Source: an uncultured Dehalococcoidia bacterium
GTDB lineage: Bacteria; Chloroflexota; Dehalococcoidia; Lucifugimonadales; UBA3495
Length of the DNA: 64,000 bases
Assembly: GCA_958296385.1 (NCBI GenBank)
Contig: OY282494.1
Span: forward strand, 975,416 to 1,039,415
Direction: 5' to 3'
Below are positions 33,678-41,603 of the stretch, one piece after another (position 1 is the stretch's first letter; every line of letters starts with the position of its first letter). The notes beneath the pieces were generated by a model, which was given only the letters and a program-made list of their open reading frames with translations, did no database searches and was not told the origin of the DNA. The position numbers were made by a program, and so were the translations under genes.

Positions 33678-34073
33678 CTACAGGTTCACCACCAGGTTGT
33701 CCGGCGCGCGGCACAGGATGCCGACCTGTTCCTCGTCGTAGGGGTTCTCCTCGATGTGCGGCGTGTTGGCCGGCACAAAGATAAAGTCGCCCGGCCCGGC
33801 CTCAATCCACTGCTCAAAGTTCTCGCCAAACCAGACCCGCACGTGGCCCTGGATGACGTAAGCGGCGGTTTCCGCCTCCAGATGGGTATGCGGCGGCCCC
33901 TTCTCCCGGGGCGCGGCCGTCACCTTGCCCATCCAGATTTTAGTAGTTTCGCCCTTGCCCGGCATAATCGCCGGCTGCCGCACCATCCCCGGCGTCTGCG
34001 TAGTCTCCGAGGCATCGCCAACGGTATGCACAACGTAAGGCTTGGCGTCGGTTTGCTGCTGCGTAGTAGTCAT
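33678..34073 (-). CDS. Cupin-domain protein
   Basis: A 131-residue single-domain cupin. The two cupin motifs are HTHLEAETAAYVIQGHVRVW, which carries the metal-binding His, His and Glu, and PGDFIFVPANTPHIEENPYD, which carries the last His. The start at 34073 (MTTTQQQTD) has AAAGGAG. The opening MTTTQQ is shared with the molybdopterin protein at 39255. Function could be dioxygenase or sugar-binding; unknown. Confidence 0.88.
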   Translation of the reverse strand: MTTTQQQTDAKPYVVHTVGDASETTQTPGMVRQPAIMPGKGETTKIWMGKVTAAPREKGPPHTHLEAETAAYVIQGHVRVWFGENFEQWIEAGPGDFIFVPANTPHIEENPYDEEQVGILCRAPDNLVVNL

Positions 34074-34111
34074 CGTAAATGCTCCTTTGCTGGTGTCATT
34101 GCAATCGTAAG

Positions 34112-34165
34112 ACGGCAATTCCGTCAAGATAACGGCTCCGTTAAGATGACAGCTCCGTTAAGGCT
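34112..34165. repeat. Short tandem repeat over a stop codon (about 17 bp units)
   Basis: Units starting at 34132 (ACGGCTCCGTTAAGATG) and 34149 (ACAGCTCCGTTAAGGCT), with a looser unit at 34112. The stop codon of the minus-strand gene at 34158 lies inside the last unit. Confidence 0.7.
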
Positions 34166-34520
34166 GATGCGCCGGGTCTGCCGGATAATCCTCCCGCCGG
34201 CCGGTATCGCCGGGCTGGATGATAAAGTCGCGGCGGTCACGATACAAGGGGGCGCGGTTCAGCACCTCCTCGTTATCCCAATCAACCTTATCGTGCGGTA
34301 TCATCAGCCAGTACTTGTAATCGCCGATAAACAGATACGCGCTGTCCCGCGTAAAAAACCGGCCGGCCACCCCCTCCCCATCATCAAGCCGCGCGCAAAC
34401 CGCCTCAAACAACTCCCGCTGCGCATCTTTTTGCAGCAGGACATACTCGTGCGGCCAAGTATGGCGGTAAGTAACCGCCTCACGCCAGGGCGCGGCGGTG
34501 ATTAGGTTGGTAAGGTTCAT
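34158..34520 (-). CDS. Conserved hypothetical protein
   Basis: A 120-residue protein I recognise only as a conserved family of unknown function: AAPWREAVTYRHTWPHEYVL near the start, then RFFTRDSAYLFIGDYKYW and a C-terminal NRAPLYRDRRDFIIQPGDTG. No signal peptide or membrane helix. The start at 34520 has AGGAG at good spacing. It lies just downstream of the DUF4268-like gene cluster on the same strand and could be its last member. Confidence 0.75.
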   Translation of the reverse strand: MNLTNLITAAPWREAVTYRHTWPHEYVLLQKDAQRELFEAVCARLDDGEGVAGRFFTRDSAYLFIGDYKYWLMIPHDKVDWDNEEVLNRAPLYRDRRDFIIQPGDTGRREDYPADPAHQP

Positions 34521-34554
34521 TGCAATACTCCTGGGACAGCGTGAATATGGGCTG

Positions 34555-35505
34555 TTATTCGTCATATCCCAATTCACCCATCACTTCGTCCAGTCGTGGT
34601 TGGATGGCAGCCTTGAATTTGGGCAAAGTATCGAGCGCCCATTCCCTGACCTCTGCAAGCCTCTCTTCCGGTTCGTTTATAGAACTGATTATGCTCGTGT
34701 AAATAGCTGACATACGCTGGTTGTCCCGGCGACTCCACCACACTCCGGCTAATTCGCTTTCAATTTCTTCCCGATACCGGAGCAGAGCATCAAAAATCTC
34801 TTTGTTTCGGTCTTTGTCCCCTGTCGCAATCCATAGGTACAAGTCAAGTCTGGGGTCTCTATTGCCTCCCCAAAAGCCAGCGTGATAGGTGATGTACTCG
34901 TATCCTGATTCAAACCAGTGATCATTACTGGCCAAAGCTGTCAATCGATCGGTGAGACCTTTGTTACGCCAGTCGTCGATCAATGGTTGAAAGAAATCTC
35001 GATACACTTGTCCAGGTTGGCGGTCACCGCTCATTTCCTGCGGTTCAGAGATTGTTCGTCCTGCCACTAGATTGAGAGCCGGAGCGTATGAATCTCCGAT
35101 GCGCCAGGCGCTTACTTCCACGCCGTAAATTTCAACCCCTTTCTCGTTGAGCCAATTCACAATACGGCAATGCCAGTCTTTGAACTCGCCGGCAACCCAG
35201 ATGAGAATACTGGAATCGCTGTGCGCGGCATAGCCGAGCAATCCCGCGCAGTGGTCGTTGTCGGAAACATCCAGTTGGTTCTCAATGACCACTTTCGCTC
35301 CGCTTTCAACTTGCTTGGCCAGAATATCAACGCGTGTCCCTCCGGGCAGCGTTGCCTCCATCTGAACCAACTCCAATTCCATACCAATCGCTTCACTCAG
35401 CAACGACAGGTTTTCCTCCAGCCAGGGCGTGAAGTTAAGCGCCTCGTTGGGCCAAACCTCCCGCACGGGCACGCGTTCCAGTGTGCCAAGATTCCGTGCA
35501 GTCAT
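34555..35505 (-). CDS. PD-(D/E)xK nuclease-like protein with DUF4268 domain, intact copy
   Basis: A 316-residue protein. The N-terminal half carries a PD-(D/E)xK-type core: Glu in ELELVQMEA, Asp in RVDILAKQ and the E-x-Q of VVIENQLDVSDNDH. The C-terminal half (from about 170, YRDFFQPLIDDWRNKGLTDR) matches DUF4268 in layout, a domain found behind putative endonucleases. It is the only one of three adjacent paralogues with both halves and all core residues. Its base composition is visibly more AT-rich than flanking genes, suggesting recent transfer. GGAG precedes the start. Role in defence or DNA metabolism is inference. Confidence 0.8.
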   Translation of the reverse strand: MTARNLGTLERVPVREVWPNEALNFTPWLEENLSLLSEAIGMELELVQMEATLPGGTRVDILAKQVESGAKVVIENQLDVSDNDHCAGLLGYAAHSDSSILIWVAGEFKDWHCRIVNWLNEKGVEIYGVEVSAWRIGDSYAPALNLVAGRTISEPQEMSGDRQPGQVYRDFFQPLIDDWRNKGLTDRLTALASNDHWFESGYEYITYHAGFWGGNRDPRLDLYLWIATGDKDRNKEIFDALLRYREEIESELAGVWWSRRDNQRMSAIYTSIISSINEPEERLAEVREWALDTLPKFKAAIQPRLDEVMGELGYDE

Positions 35506-35595
35506 CTTACAATCTCCATCCTGGTTAGCCGCATCAGCGCAATCTTACGGGTGCGGCGATGGACTGGCAAGGGCTTTGCCCGACCTTTCCTTATG

Positions 35596-36060
35596 TCAAG
35601 ATGCGGGGGTTGCTACGGGGCGGAGTATTACGGAGGGGAGCGATTCGCCGATTTTGATGGCGCTGACTTCTACGCCGTAGATTTTGATTTCGTCGGCGGT
35701 GTGGCGGTTTAGCCAGTCGATGGCGGCGCGGTGGACATCGTAAAACTTGGGCGCCACCCAAATCAGCGTGCGGGCGTTGAAATGCCCGGCGTAAGTCAGG
35801 GTTTGCCCCAAATGGCTGTTGTCGCTCCATTCCAGCTGGTTCTCGATGGCGACGTATGCGCCGTTACGGTCGCGCGCCAGTATGTCAAGAGAGAAATTGC
35901 CCGTGGACGCCTCGGTGGTCACCGCCTCCAGTTCCATCCCCAGGGCCTCGCCCAGCAGATGGATGTTTGCGGCGAGCCACGGCGTGAAATCCAGGTCCTC
36001 ATAGGGCCAGATGTCGCGCGGGCGGACGTGTTGTATGCTGCCCAGTTGCGGCCTTGCCAT
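35596..36060 (-). CDS. PD-(D/E)xK nuclease-like domain only (truncated paralogue)
   Basis: A 154-residue protein equal to the N-terminal half of the two flanking paralogues: RDIWPYEDLDFTPWLAANIH, FSLDILARDRNGAYVAIENQ and EIKIYGVEVSAIKIGESLPS. The D...E-x-Q core is intact, but the DUF4268 half is absent and the chain stops after a short tail. It starts only 2 bp after the stop of the 360-residue paralogue, with AGGAGGG, so it is translated with it. Either a genuine single-domain nuclease subunit or a truncated remnant. Confidence 0.75.
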   Translation of the reverse strand: MARPQLGSIQHVRPRDIWPYEDLDFTPWLAANIHLLGEALGMELEAVTTEASTGNFSLDILARDRNGAYVAIENQLEWSDNSHLGQTLTYAGHFNARTLIWVAPKFYDVHRAAIDWLNRHTADEIKIYGVEVSAIKIGESLPSVILRPVATPAS

Positions 36061-36062
36061 CG

Positions 36063-37145
36063 CTAATTTCCCTCCTGTTGCCCATCTATGCTATTCACAT
36101 CCGGCGTGTCCGCAGTGTAGCCAGGCCCGTCATTCGGCAACGCATCAAAACCGGCATCCCCGGTTTCGTCAGCATCATCGGCATCATCGTCCGACAGTTC
36201 GTCCATTACCTGCTCCAAAAACGGCTGGACGGCGGCTTTGAGGTTCAGCAGATTGTCCCGCATCCACTCCCGAATCTCGGCAAGTTCCCCGTCCGGCGCG
36301 TTCAGCGAACCCTCCCGCATCATCCCCAGGCTGACCCGGCGCCAGCCGCCCAGCTGGCCCATCAAGTCAAACTGGAGGTCGGCCAGTTCGCTTTGCAACT
36401 CGGCTTGATGCTGGAGCAGCGCATCGTAAATCCGCACGCTCTTGTCGTACTCGCCGGCCGAAACCCAAAGGTACACGCGGGCAGTGCCCGGCGTTAATTC
36501 GGCAACGTAGAAAATGCCGGGAAACCCGGACGGGAACGACTGCACGCTAGTAGCCCTGGCCGCAGTCCGATTCGTAAAGCCCACGCTCCACAAATCCTCA
36601 ATCAGGGGTTGAAAGAAGTTCCGGCGCTGGTAGGCCACCGGCGACAGCCCGCTGGACGCCTGCCCCTCGCGCTTGGCCCAGGCGCTGCTGAATACCACCG
36701 GACGAAACTCAATGGCCGGGGGCGAATCGCCAATCCTGATGGCGTGGGATTCTACGCCGTACACTTCAATATCGGGGTCAGTCCACTCGTTGAGCCATTC
36801 CAGCGTTTTGCGGTGTTCCGGCCGGAAGTGCGGCGCCACCCAGATGAGGACGCTGGCGCCCTGCGCCGCCGCATTGCCGGGCAGCTTGCCCAGCGCGATG
36901 TGAGCCGACCGTTGCAGCTGCGTAACGATGGCAACCGTAGAGTCGCTGCCGACTTCTTTCGCCAGGATGTCCAGGTCAAACCAGCCCACCGGCGGCTGTA
37001 TCCGCACCAGCTCCAAGTCCATGTGCAGCACTTCGCCCAGCAGCTGCAAGTTCTCCGATAACCAGCGGGAGAACTCCAGCCGGTCATCGCCCCAAAGCCG
37101 GGCCACGTCCACCGACTCAATAGCGCCAAGTTCCTGTACCGTCAT
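36063..37145 (-). CDS. DUF4268-domain paralogue with altered nuclease core
   Basis: A 360-residue paralogue with both halves: VDVARLWGDDRLEFSRWLSE, FDLDILAKEVGSD, then the DUF4268-like part from RRNFFQPLIEDLWSVGFTNR. At the core position where its neighbours have I-E-N-Q it has I-V-T-Q, so the catalytic Glu is missing; the Asp of LDILA remains. The C-terminal tail is Asp-rich (DDDADDADETGDAG). This looks like an inactive or DNA-binding-only version that might pair with the intact 154-residue neighbour. AAGGAG precedes the start. Confidence 0.78.
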   Translation of the reverse strand: MTVQELGAIESVDVARLWGDDRLEFSRWLSENLQLLGEVLHMDLELVRIQPPVGWFDLDILAKEVGSDSTVAIVTQLQRSAHIALGKLPGNAAAQGASVLIWVAPHFRPEHRKTLEWLNEWTDPDIEVYGVESHAIRIGDSPPAIEFRPVVFSSAWAKREGQASSGLSPVAYQRRNFFQPLIEDLWSVGFTNRTAARATSVQSFPSGFPGIFYVAELTPGTARVYLWVSAGEYDKSVRIYDALLQHQAELQSELADLQFDLMGQLGGWRRVSLGMMREGSLNAPDGELAEIREWMRDNLLNLKAAVQPFLEQVMDELSDDDADDADETGDAGFDALPNDGPGYTADTPDVNSIDGQQEGN

Positions 37146-37152
37146 CGCTAAC

Positions 37153-37182
37153 TCCTTACGGGGATAATCCTTACGGGATAAC
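37153..37182. repeat. 15-bp tandem duplication between genes
   Basis: TCCTTACGGGGATAA (37153-37167) is followed by TCCTTACGGGATAAC (37168-37182). It duplicates the ribosome-site sequence of the 36063-37145 gene (AAGGAG on the minus strand is at its edge). Confidence 0.7.
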
Positions 37183-37184
37183 TG

Positions 37185-37724
37185 TTAGTCCGCAGCTGCG
37201 GCCATGGCGACAATCGTAACCCCGGCCCGCCTGGCCCGCTCATATTCATGGTCGGGGATTTCGCTGCCTACGACCAGAGCGTTACATTCGGCGTCGGTGG
37301 CCTTTGCAACCGTCCGGGCGCGCCGGGCGGCCCGGTTCACGTCGGCATCGGCCACAGTAAAGCCAACTTCGACGAGGACATAAACCCGCTGCCCGTCAGG
37401 ATTAGCGCCGGCGGCGATAAGGTCGGCGTCCAGCACATCATCCCGTTCCTCCCGCGTAATAGCGCCCCGTTCATCGGCATCGTCAAGCAAGTCGCTCAGC
37501 CCATCGTCCGTATCCCCCCAATCCCGATGCACCACCCGCACCTGCGACAACCCAAAAGAGCGGCGCAGTACACCCCTGATATTCCGGGCAACCCGCCGTT
37601 CATACCGGGTGCCGCCGTAATTCTCCAACTGCTCGTTAATTTCCGCCATAATCCTGCGCATAGCACCCATCTGAACAATCATTTCGTCGGCTATTCCAGC
37701 TATTTCGTCGCTGCGGGCCAGCAA
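37185..37724 (-). CDS. Hypothetical protein, PD-(D/E)xK-like C-terminal half
   Basis: A 179-residue protein. Residues 1-40 are helical and may form a coiled coil; RYERRVARNIRGVLRRSFGL follows; then DVLDADLIAAG and YVLVEVGFTVADADVNRAAR look like the D...E-x-(K) strands of a nuclease fold, with Gly in place of the Lys. The start is TTG at 37724 with AAGGAG 11 bases upstream; a later ATG near residue 15 is possible. It lies 39 bp upstream of the 360-residue DUF4268 paralogue. The 187 bp upstream of it (37725-37911) show no feature. Confidence 0.65.
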   Translation of the reverse strand: MLARSDEIAGIADEMIVQMGAMRRIMAEINEQLENYGGTRYERRVARNIRGVLRRSFGLSQVRVVHRDWGDTDDGLSDLLDDADERGAITREERDDVLDADLIAAGANPDGQRVYVLVEVGFTVADADVNRAARRARTVAKATDAECNALVVGSEIPDHEYERARRAGVTIVAMAAAAD

Positions 37725-37911
37725 GATAGTACCTGCTCCTTAGTCATGGATGATTGGCACATTGATACCGGCGATTTCGCCATCAATACCCGGCGAATTG
37801 CAAGCAGCGCCGGGGCTACAATTGTACACCCCACAAGCATGGCCGTGGCTCAAACTTCGGCGGCGACAATGCCGGTTGACTTACTCCACATTGGATTTTT
37901 GCCGGCGCGCG

Positions 37912-39162
37912 CTATCGCTCGCCGGCCAGCATCGCCTGCAAACGTGGATGCAGCGTACTGACCAGGCGGTTCAGATGCTCCCGCATCCAAGCCACCGCAT
38001 CCTGAAAATCCGCGCTTTCCTCGCTGCCGGCCATAAACGACAAACCGCCTTGTCGCCGGAAACCGATCCTACGCCGGCCGGACCCGCTCTGCCAGAACTC
38101 CAGAGAATTGTCGTGCATTTCCTCGCCAAGCTCGTCAAGCAATTCCAATTGTTCGTCAAAGATGCGGACGGCGCGCGTTTGGTCGCGCCGCGACATCAGA
38201 AAGCAGCCGATTTCATCATTGTCGCGTCGCACGTAGCCGTCAAAACACAAGGCCCAGTCGCCGTATCCCGAATTCCGCACGCGCACGTACAGCGTTGAAT
38301 CCTTGACCGGAATCGGCACATCCACCGTCGTGTCGGCAAAAGAGAACCCCCGCAGCACCGCCGTCCAGAACCGGAGATTCTCCGCCTCTTGTTCCGAGAG
38401 CGTTTCCCGTTCCTGCTCGTCATCACCCGCGCTAACGTCTGTCACCTGACCACCGTCAACTACGAACCGCTGCACGATTTCGGTGCGGGCCAGGACGCGG
38501 GGTTGGACGATCAGGTGGTTGGCGGCATCGCGGTAAAGGGCAGCCTCAATCATCGCCAGGTTGAAATGCAGGCCGCTGTAACGCTGCACGAAGTCAACGA
38601 TGTTGGCGGCGCCCTCCTGAATCCCATCGCCGATAATCAGCAGCAGGAACTCGCCCCGCCGCAGGTGCCGGCTTACGTTGTCAACGAATTCCGATTCGTT
38701 TAACTCCGGGTGCCGTTCGTTCACCAAATCGTAGAGAACGTTGCCGCTTTTACCCAGGGCCAAAGAGACCTGACGCTGCAAATCCTCATAGCCCCACGAT
38801 GCCAGGTCTTTGGCATAGTCCAGAATCTGCCCGATGACTTCCCGCCGCGCCTGCGGGTTGCGCCACAGCTTAAACTCGGCAAGCGTAATCCGCCCCAGCC
38901 GGTTGATGTACAGCGCATCGGCATACCCGGCCGGCAAGGATAATTCCCGGCAGATTGGAACTGCGCCGGCGTAGGCCAGGTCGATGGCGGCGAGGGGCAA
39001 GGTTTGCGGATAGTGAAACAGCAGGTTTTGCAAGTCAGCCTCGGCAACGCCCCCCGATGACTGCCCGGCGCCCAGCGGCACACGCCCCAACACTTCGGGG
39101 GCGCTATCGCCGTCGGTATCAACCCGTATCAAACCTCCATAGGTTTGCGCCTCGCTGGTCAT
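37912..39162 (-). CDS. PD-(D/E)xK nuclease-like protein with DUF4268-like C-terminus
   Basis: A 416-residue protein. The nuclease-like core reads YADALYINRLGRITLAEFKL followed by WRNPQARREVIGQILDYAKD, a full D...E-x-K with the downstream R/Q typical of this superfamily. A second half from about residue 260 (LRFWTAVLRGFSF ... VAWMREHLNRLVSTLHPRLQ) resembles the DUF4268 region of the paralogues downstream. It is the first gene of the five-gene minus-strand cluster. GGTGAG precedes the start. The match to known anti-phage nucleases is structural inference only. Confidence 0.75.
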   Translation of the reverse strand: MTSEAQTYGGLIRVDTDGDSAPEVLGRVPLGAGQSSGGVAEADLQNLLFHYPQTLPLAAIDLAYAGAVPICRELSLPAGYADALYINRLGRITLAEFKLWRNPQARREVIGQILDYAKDLASWGYEDLQRQVSLALGKSGNVLYDLVNERHPELNESEFVDNVSRHLRRGEFLLLIIGDGIQEGAANIVDFVQRYSGLHFNLAMIEAALYRDAANHLIVQPRVLARTEIVQRFVVDGGQVTDVSAGDDEQERETLSEQEAENLRFWTAVLRGFSFADTTVDVPIPVKDSTLYVRVRNSGYGDWALCFDGYVRRDNDEIGCFLMSRRDQTRAVRIFDEQLELLDELGEEMHDNSLEFWQSGSGRRRIGFRRQGGLSFMAGSEESADFQDAVAWMREHLNRLVSTLHPRLQAMLAGER

Positions 39163-39254: not shown

Positions 39255-41603
39255 TTAGCCCCCGTTCTGTTCCCACAGCGCTTCCAGCACGGCGCCGGGG
39301 TTCATGGGCAGGTTGGTCATTCGCACGCCCAGGGCGTCGTGGATGGCGTTGGCTATGGTGGCCATGGGGGGGACGATGGGTACTTCGCCCACGCCGCGCA
39401 CCCCGTAGGGGTGGCCGGGGTTCGGCACTTCCACCACCACCGTGTCAATCATCGGCAAGTCCAGCGCCGTCGGCATCCGGTAGTCCAGGAAGCTGGAGTT
39501 CTGCATCTGCGCGTCGTCGTTGAAGTAATACTCCTCGTTCAGCGCCCAGCCGATGCCCTGCACGGCGCCGCCCTGTATCTGCCCCTCCACGTAGGCCGGA
39601 TGAATGGCGGTGCCCACGTCCTGGATGGCGGTGTAGCGCAGGATGTCCACCTTGCCAGTGTCGGCGTCCACGGCCACGTCGGCGATGTGCAGGGCGTAGG
39701 CGCCGCCGACCCCCGTCGGCGAAACGTTGGCCCGCCCCACGATGGGCCCGCCGGTGCCGTTGAGCCGGGACGCCAGCTCCCGGAACGTGAAACGCAGCTC
39801 CGGCTCCGACTTGTGCTGGATGACCCCGTCGGCAAACTCCACGTTCTCCGGCGCGATGTCCCAGATGCGGGCCGCTCGGTTAATCATCTGCTGCTTGACG
39901 TCCTGCGCCGCCTCATAAGATGCCCAGCCGGTCTTGAAAGCCACGCCGCTGCCGCCGGTCATCGACGTCCAGCCGATTGAGTTAGTATCGCCCACCGACG
40001 GGTTGACGTCCTCGGCGGCGATGCCCAGCACCTCGGCAACGTGCATCGCCGCCACCGCGCGGCTGCCGCCGATGTCCGGCGAACCCTCCACCAGACTGAC
40101 GGTGCCATCGGCCAGCACGCTGACGATGGCGCTGGCCGGGCCGGTGCCGTTGAACCAGAAACCGCCGGCGACGCCGCGCCCCACTTTCTTGCCCGCGGCC
40201 TCCGGCGTCCGGTCAATGGGCGCGTTCCAGTGGTCATGCTCCCGGGCGGCCTGCAAGGTTTCCTGCCAGCCGATGCTGCCGAACTGCGGGCCGGTAACCC
40301 GCCGGTCGCCCTCTCTGGCGCCGTTCAGCGCCCGGAACTCCATCTTGTCCATCCCGATGGCATCGCAGATTTCGTCCACCACCGACTCCACGGCGAAAGC
40401 AGCCGCCGGCGAGCCGGGCGCGCGGTAGGCCGCCGTCTTGGGGTGGTTCAGCACCACGTCCGCCGCCTCAACCCGCCCGTTGGCGATGTTGTAGCAGGAC
40501 AGCGCGCATTGGGCGCCGGGGTTGACCGGCGAGCCGGGATAAGCGCCGGCCTCGTAGTACAGCGCAACGTCGGCGGCGGTAATTTTGCCGTCGTTGGTCG
40601 CGCCCATTTTCACCCGCAGATACCCGCCGGAAGTTGGGCCGGTGCCCTCAAAGACCTCGGTGCGGGACATGGCAACTTTCACCGGGCGGCCCGTCTTGCG
40701 GGACAGCGCCGCCGCCACCGGCTCCAGGTACACCAGCGTTTTGCCGCCAAACCCGCCGCCAATCTCCATCTGCACCACGCGGATTTTGGACACCGGCAGA
40801 CCCAGGACGACGGCCGACTGGTCCCGCACGTTAAAATGACCCTGGCTGCTGCACCAGATGGTCAGCGTGTCGTCGGCGTTCCACAGCGCAGTAGCGGCGT
40901 GGGGCTCGATGTAGCCCTGATGCACCGCCTTGGTGCGAAACTCCCGCTCGATAATGACGTCGGCCTGGCCAAAGCCGGCCTCCAAGTCGCCCAGCTCATA
41001 GAAATAGCGATTGGGCACGTTGCCCGTCTTGCCGCTGTCGCCGTCGGCCAGCAAACCGCCGGGCCGCACGCTGGGGTCGTTGAGATTGGCCAGCCGCTCG
41101 TGAACCAGCGGCGCATCGTCCCGCATCGCCTCCAGCACGTCGGTAACCGGCGCCAGCACCTCGTACTCCACGTCAATCAGCGCCAGCGCCAGCTCCGCCG
41201 TGTGCGCGTTGTCGGCGGCTACGGCGGCGATGGCGTGGCCCTTGTACAGGGCTTTGTCCGCGGCCAGGCAGTTGTTGCTCAAAAACTTGGGGTTAATCAT
41301 CGCCCCCTCGCCCAGGTCAATGACCCGTCCGGCGGGTTGGGGCAAATCCGCCGCCGTAGCCACGGCGTGCACGCCGGGCATCGCCTCCGCGCGGGACGTG
41401 TCAATGCTGATGATGCGGGCGTGGGCGTGCGGGCTGCGCAAAACCTTGCCGTGGAGCATCCCCGGCAGCTGCCAGTCCGCCCCATACTGCGCCCGCCCGG
41501 TAACCTTGTCGGTGCCGTCATGACGGATGGGCCGGCTCCCGATGACGCGGTAACCGTCAGTGGCGGCCGATTGCTGGGCGGCCGATTGCTGGGTAGTAGT
41601 CAT
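39255..41603 (-). CDS. Xanthine dehydrogenase family molybdopterin-binding subunit
   Basis: A 782-residue large subunit of the xanthine oxidase/CO dehydrogenase family, which hydroxylates its substrate at a molybdopterin-cytosine-type cofactor. It has the N-terminal a/b hammerhead (PIRHDGTDKVTGRAQYGADW), the GGGFGGKT loop, AYRAPGSPAAAFAVESVVDE and the C-terminal GVRGVGEVPIVPPMATIANA with the active-site Glu region. The usual FAD-binding and [2Fe-2S] subunits are not adjacent, so they must come from elsewhere. The N-terminus carries a duplicated SAAQQ from a 15-bp tandem repeat. GGGAGGGG precedes the start. Confidence 0.93.
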   Translation of the reverse strand: MTTTQQSAAQQSAATDGYRVIGSRPIRHDGTDKVTGRAQYGADWQLPGMLHGKVLRSPHAHARIISIDTSRAEAMPGVHAVATAADLPQPAGRVIDLGEGAMINPKFLSNNCLAADKALYKGHAIAAVAADNAHTAELALALIDVEYEVLAPVTDVLEAMRDDAPLVHERLANLNDPSVRPGGLLADGDSGKTGNVPNRYFYELGDLEAGFGQADVIIEREFRTKAVHQGYIEPHAATALWNADDTLTIWCSSQGHFNVRDQSAVVLGLPVSKIRVVQMEIGGGFGGKTLVYLEPVAAALSRKTGRPVKVAMSRTEVFEGTGPTSGGYLRVKMGATNDGKITAADVALYYEAGAYPGSPVNPGAQCALSCYNIANGRVEAADVVLNHPKTAAYRAPGSPAAAFAVESVVDEICDAIGMDKMEFRALNGAREGDRRVTGPQFGSIGWQETLQAAREHDHWNAPIDRTPEAAGKKVGRGVAGGFWFNGTGPASAIVSVLADGTVSLVEGSPDIGGSRAVAAMHVAEVLGIAAEDVNPSVGDTNSIGWTSMTGGSGVAFKTGWASYEAAQDVKQQMINRAARIWDIAPENVEFADGVIQHKSEPELRFTFRELASRLNGTGGPIVGRANVSPTGVGGAYALHIADVAVDADTGKVDILRYTAIQDVGTAIHPAYVEGQIQGGAVQGIGWALNEEYYFNDDAQMQNSSFLDYRMPTALDLPMIDTVVVEVPNPGHPYGVRGVGEVPIVPPMATIANAIHDALGVRMTNLPMNPGAVLEALWEQNGG
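41563..41592. repeat. 15-bp tandem duplication in the molybdopterin-subunit gene
   Basis: GCGGCCGATTGCTGG occurs twice in direct succession (41563-41577 and 41578-41592). It is in frame and gives a repeated QQSAA at residues 5-14. Confidence 0.85.

Follow-up and report, generated by a model that had tools for sequence, protein, structure and literature searches.

The described systems closest to the genes considered here each resemble them in part. NucS/EndoMS (PDB 2vld and 5gke) has the same nuclease-domain fold and the same positions of the catalytic Asp and Glu; the GmrSD type IV restriction enzymes share with them DUF4268, known as a GmrSD add-on domain (PMC4619093); and R.BspD6I has a large subunit extended by a further domain (Nt.BspD6I) and a lone small nuclease encoded by a neighbouring gene, the large subunit being an active nickase whose catalysis is needed for the activity of the small one (PMC6261011). 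Our genes lie at 34158–39162 of a 64,000-nucleotide stretch (the window) of contig OY282494.1, from an uncultured Dehalococcoidia bacterium whose close relatives are sponge-dwelling. Two adjacent genes among them, one for a full-length protein that has lost its catalytic Glu (P0003) and one for a nuclease domain standing by itself (P0004), recur together in two further species and may have divided between them the work of a single nuclease.

We refer to proteins made of an N domain (about 155 amino acids) and a C domain (Pfam DUF4268) as NC proteins, dead if the catalytic Glu is missing and live if it is present, and to their small companion as P6. The central genes are as follows.

P0003, 36063..37145, minus strand: 360 amino acids; dead NC protein (VAIVTQL) with the DUF4268 C domain intact; proposed pseudonuclease platform
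P0004, 35596..36060, minus strand: 154 amino acids; lone N (nuclease) domain (VAIENQL) with D59...E73-N-Q75 intact; proposed catalytic subunit
P0005, 34555..35505, minus strand: 316 amino acids; complete live NC protein (VVIENQL) with D60...E75-N-Q77 and DUF4268; PDC-S11 family
P6 (P0006), 34158..34520 from its ATG, minus strand (GTG start at 34577 in the list of open reading frames): about 120 amino acids; conserved partner, undescribed family

The first-pass annotation of this DNA had described three paralogues in three states (intact, N-terminal domain only, and full length with I-E-N-Q changed to I-V-T-Q), and a two-gene unit with a 2 bp gap in which a lone active domain is paired with a full-length inactive protein. 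Our analysis bears this out: the frames are open at these coordinates, P0003, P0004 and P0005 are true paralogues (41–50% identity to P0005) with no further copy in the genome (a single contig of 3.30 Mb), and P0004, the second gene of the pair, follows P0003 after exactly 2 bp.

In P0003, Asp59 is retained, the catalytic Glu is replaced by Val74 and Glu21 by Asp, and no alternative or shifted Glu is found on the catalytic strand. Among 68 distinct N domains (numbered as in P0005), 65 carry Glu at position 75, and Val stands there in the three dead-type proteins alone; Asp60 is present in 67 of the 68, missing from the dead protein of genome G033; Glu21 is present in 64 and altered in all three dead proteins; and Gln77, which makes this a D-ExQ active site, is present in 65. 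Trp18, Phe25, Trp28 and Asn120 are retained in the dead proteins, so that this census describes domains from which the catalytic acids have gone and in which the scaffold has been kept. The catalytic Glu of P0003 is truly lost. We rejected the idea that P0004 is a truncated NC gene, because no C-domain remnant was found in the 90 bp that follow it or in the corresponding gap of the related locus L048.

The dead NC gene and the lone N gene are adjacent and in identical order in the window and in two other genomes. One of these, G006 (contig OY282456.1, locus L048), is a congener in which the pair lies at the matching genomic position with the matching 2 bp gap; the other, G033 (OY282442.1, locus L047), belongs to a different family, and there the pair is at a different genomic position and its genes overlap at start and stop. 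The lone protein ends at the domain boundary in every pair. The dead proteins are monophyletic (support 99/97), the lone domains cluster less firmly (87/65), and together these groupings imply a single origin and long retention. In G033 the dead, lone and P6 genes stand together with no live NC gene adjoining, a complete unit which suggests that the pair can replace one live NC protein. The live NC protein P0005 was not retained as a member of the conserved pair; its positional counterpart in G006 is not an ortholog (41% identity, different subclades), which shows the third gene to be swappable, and none lies beside the G033 pair. High-scoring relatives that came up in the search for further dead and lone pairs, G302, G419 and G421 among them, turned out to be live NC proteins.

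Ratios of nonsynonymous to synonymous substitution rates (dN/dS) between the window and G006 were 0.20–0.23 for the dead protein (0.13–0.19 for its N domain) and 0.14–0.22 for the lone domain, compared with 0.09 for P6 and 0.04–0.10 for flanking genes, and they indicate that the dead and lone genes are both under purifying selection. At the distance of G033, the dead proteins are 55% identical in the N domain and 29–32% in the C domain, which matches live pairs of equal N identity (118 pairs; mean C identity 27%, standard deviation 10), and the dead nuclease domain therefore does not appear relaxed. A nonfunctional nuclease domain would be expected to drift, and that it has not done so argues against decay.

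The nuclease assignment is supported by a structure model of P0005 (predicted local distance difference test score 89.8; predicted template modelling score 0.54, which leaves it unsure how the two domains lie to each other). Its N domain is predicted to have the PD-(D/E)xK fold of NucS/EndoMS, with a Z score of 12.8 and 1.8 Å over 103 residues at 18% identity to 2vld, chain A of which is equalled as a match by 5gke_A (Z 12.8); the PD-(D/E)xK/DUF4268 assignment of the first-pass annotation therefore stands, the DUF4268 profile matching P0003 (E-value 2e-6) and P0005 (1e-10). The family differs from NucS/EndoMS in having ExQ where the latter has ExK, and in carrying DUF4268 at the C-terminus instead of an N-terminal NucS domain; the best match to the NucS equivalog models, that of P0004, scores 16.1 bits where the cut-off is 216. 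Folds similar to that of the C domain are those of dimeric secretion chaperones, YbjN and DR_1245-type proteins, at Z 7–9, a range in which chance likeness is possible, so that dimerisation through DUF4268 is something we only infer. In fold the N domain also matches both R.BspD6I subunits (2p14, Z 7.6; 6qnz, Z 7.2). Neither a PDB sequence search with the N domain nor a single-sequence scan of genome contigs with P0005 gave a usable match, and the NC family was reached through a genome search and the P6 alignment.

The first-pass annotation recognised no known defence system, and this has to be revised. The PADLOC profiles for PDC-S11 match P0003, P0004 and P0005 with E-values of 1e-44 to 1e-64, covering positions 1–306 of 318 in P0005, 1–312 in P0003 and only 3–155 in P0004, and the family is therefore already recognised as a candidate for defence. 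In PADLOC it is a single-gene candidate, to which the window adds P6 and a copy in two parts, a dead platform and a catalytic domain standing alone. Proteins annotated as 'DUF4268 domain-containing' also occur on plasmids and an archaeal provirus, and viral contigs yielded one N-domain relative. In the literature searched, PDC-S11 appears only as a PADLOC label, with no functional test found, and DUF4268 is mentioned only as a frequent add-on to GmrSD whose function is unknown; the window genes themselves differ from GmrSD in having no DUF262 or DUF1524 domain. Elsewhere in the family, genome G028 has four tandem genes (L067:5129-9184) that each join an N domain to a C-terminal part other than DUF4268 (311–324 amino acids), and two NC proteins of 553–557 amino acids (L184:1471-3144 and L187:4882-6543) have an extra N-terminal region of 233 residues, without a Pfam match in L184.

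The small conserved protein reported to follow the nuclease genes is P6, which most likely starts at the ATG at 34520 rather than at the listed GTG. It has no match in Pfam, NCBIfam, PADLOC or PHROGs, no usable match among PDB sequences and none in the phages or plasmids searched; its structure model is confident (scores as above, 90 and 0.84), and structure searches with it returned no convincing fold (best Foldseek E-value 0.48, best VIA Z score 3.6). The family is thus undescribed in the sources that we searched. Its invariant residues are W12/R13, W22-P-H-E-Y26, K69-Y-W71, N88-R89 and D95-R-R-D-F99. Scanning about 85,000 species, each represented by one genome, yielded 130 relatives, and the best 79 loci (L101–L179) come from Chloroflexota, Actinomycetota, Gemmatimonadota, Acidobacteriota, Pseudomonadota, Bacteroidota and Latescibacterota. 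By sample code, 31 of these 79 originate from sponge studies: six from Aplysina bins (PMC5649159), 23 with the codes RHO, COS, IRC, CAR or APA, which fit the seven sponge species of PMC8163846, and two with the code 277c, which denotes a Petrosia ficiformis specimen (PMC6506613). The family therefore spans many phyla, largely in sponge-symbiont bins, although, the loci being metagenome bins, lone cross-phylum matches may be binning errors. The remaining sample codes presumably also denote sponge projects.

The nuclease-like genes that adjoin P6 in these loci are of five kinds or more: ESK-type PD-(D/E)xK-like genes (20 loci), NC or N genes (12), PDDEXK_4/PDC-S26 (5), GmrSD (2, with one more DUF262-like by eye) and P0001-type genes, abbreviated P1 (2). 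Partner type changes at least 23 times on the P6 tree, and P6 remains 56–70% identical although it stands beside unrelated nucleases. P1–P6 pairs are found in L212, L215, L102 and L112, with the two genes directly together in G011 and G008. In genome G499 (L183:5795-6634), P6 and a lone N domain form one open reading frame of 279 amino acids, followed by a P0002 homologue, and this natural fusion ties P6 to the N domain. Six loci (L110, L111, L131, L135, L142 and L144, four of them titled Acidimicrobiia) have a macro-domain gene immediately followed by P6 and make up one clade of the P6 tree (99/91).

The remaining genes of the region are two further candidates for cargo and the two edges between which the whole set lies.

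Molybdopterin (xanthine dehydrogenase-type) oxidoreductase, 39255..41603, minus strand: conserved hotspot edge, opposite the cupin-type gene
P0001, 37912..39162, minus strand: 416 amino acids; PD-(D/E)xK-like N-terminal part (D...LAEFKLW) and DUF4268-like C-terminus; hotspot accessory cargo
P0002, 37185..37724, minus strand: 179 amino acids; TTG start; weakly PDDEXK_10-like
Cupin-type gene, 33678..34127, minus strand: conserved hotspot edge

Transcription runs P0001, P0002, P0003, P0004, P0005, P0006. The claim that two more nuclease-like genes precede the paralogues holds for P0001, which has a D...EFK motif by eye, a C-domain profile match (E-value 2e-25) and a weak PDC-S11 match; for P0002 the assignment is weak, the PDDEXK_10 match (E-value 0.064) lying below the cut-off. 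P0002 homologues occur upstream of NC or P1 genes in L048, L059, L062 and L215 and have 274–303 amino acids; because their N-terminal extension of some 100 residues, coiled-coil-like by eye, is missing here, the window copy may be truncated, perhaps alone among the genes of the cluster.

In 14 members of the genus, either both edges or one edge and cargo could be located; in 13 of these, the gap between oxidoreductase and cupin genes holds NC with P6, P1 with P6 or other cargo. NC and P6 occupy it in G001, G003, G005, G009, G010 and G012, NC alone in G007, P1 with P6 in G011, a dCTP-deaminase-like gene in G002 (L214) and the same with a P6 fragment in G004 (L213); G006 and the window have larger gene sets. 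NC and P6 adjoin the cupin gene in G013, where an oxidoreductase paralogue lies on the opposite side, and P0002, P1 and P6 adjoin the oxidoreductase in G008, where no cupin gene was found. With flanks conserved and cargo exchangeable across related genomes, by which a defence hotspot is recognised, the gap looks like one. Between the P0002 and P1 homologues of G008 there is also a small gene (L215:9487-9858), weakly HEPN/PaREP1-like (E-values 0.002 and 0.0075), which is possibly further defence cargo.

The reading that we favour, tentatively and at a little under an even chance, is that the locus is a hotspot occupant carrying a defence-like nuclease–P6 module, in which one NC copy has come apart into two proteins, a pseudonuclease serving as platform and a catalytic subunit standing alone. 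The core unit would be two genes, NC and P6, and the most economical history would have this canonical unit duplicated and one copy then dividing its labour, P0003 keeping DUF4268 and a noncutting nuclease fold and P0004 keeping catalysis. Given a conserved unit of a lone active and a full-length inactive protein, it is reasonable to propose an asymmetric complex, and the three findings on which the first-pass annotation had made that proposal depend came out in its favour: the nuclease fold is there, P0003 has no shifted Glu and the lone gene is not a pseudogene in relatives. DUF4268 would keep P0003, as dimer or platform, on its target, presumably invading DNA; P0004 would dock on the dead domain across the interface where two NucS-like domains normally pair on DNA; and each assembly, having half the usual active sites, would nick or cut conditionally, with P6 as a trigger, target or adaptor component. 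Several points weigh against this. A search of 250 genomes of the order turned up only three dead and lone pairs; the P6 most closely related to that of the window is not the one of G033, so that inheritance of P6 is not strictly tied to that of the pair; and NucS-type lone domains could pair with themselves, leaving P0003 a separate role. The small subunit of R.BspD6I, moreover, is inactive if the large subunit is catalytically dead (PMC6261011), whereas P0003 is just such a subunit, and in all three pairs the residues predict a large subunit that, unlike that of R.BspD6I, is not catalytically competent.

The dead protein might instead be a brake, an inhibitor derived from a duplicated nuclease that binds P0004, P0005 or both and keeps them inactive until infection. 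This also predicts adjacent, translationally coupled genes under purifying selection, and P0003 precedes P0004 as an inhibitor gene would; but canonical NC–P6 units elsewhere have no dead partner, which argues that the nuclease does not generally depend on a brake, and we consider this account unlikely. Slightly less likely still is a toxin–antitoxin pair in which P6 neutralises a toxic NC protein or lone N domain. P6 is small, adjacent or overlapping and strongly conserved, and remnants of it persist where the nuclease has been lost (L213, L108), but specific antitoxins usually follow their toxin, whereas P6 keeps its sequence beside unrelated nucleases; many NC genes lack it, even inside the P6-carrying clade (L030, L032, L040), and in L183 it is fused to the N domain. 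That the closest fold is a mismatch nuclease would suit a role in DNA repair or genome maintenance, as in NucS/EndoMS, rather than in defence, but we regard this as improbable: patchy presence, multiple copies per genome, swapped cargo in a hotspot and occurrence on plasmids and a provirus are unlike a repair gene, and the NucS equivalog score falls far below its cut-off. The first-pass annotation spoke of 'different states of decay', and P0003 with its lost residues, P0004 without a C domain and P0002, shorter than its homologues, could be seen in that way. We find it scarcely credible that P0003 and P0004 are pseudogene stages, as both states recur in two further species with the same domain boundary and under purifying selection, no C-domain remnant follows P0004 and the losses are specific to the active site; one recent transfer of the pair is argued against by the identity of only 55–58% between the window and G033 copies.

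The NC family is thus already known as a candidate for defence, and we found neither the split pair nor the partner family P6 described in the sources searched. Candidate genes of the PDC type are listed singly and without a mechanism, whereas this locus naturally separates catalysis from scaffold, and the split makes a division of labour directly testable, through the dependence of the lone domain on the dead one. In a wider account, which we hold to be possible though on the doubtful side, P6 would work with restriction-like nucleases in general (NC/PDC-S11, P0001-type, ESK-type, PDDEXK_4/PDC-S26 and GmrSD), swapped between phyla within sponge microbiomes, and in one lineage the nuclease would have become two proteins, a platform formed by a pseudonuclease and a separate catalytic subunit that cuts one strand only, or only when assembled. 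Restriction genes are enriched in sponge microbiomes (PMC5649159, PMC8163846), an enrichment that is mostly unexplained; P6 offers a handle on a partner that seemingly serves several unrelated nucleases, and marks the traffic of genes within these communities.

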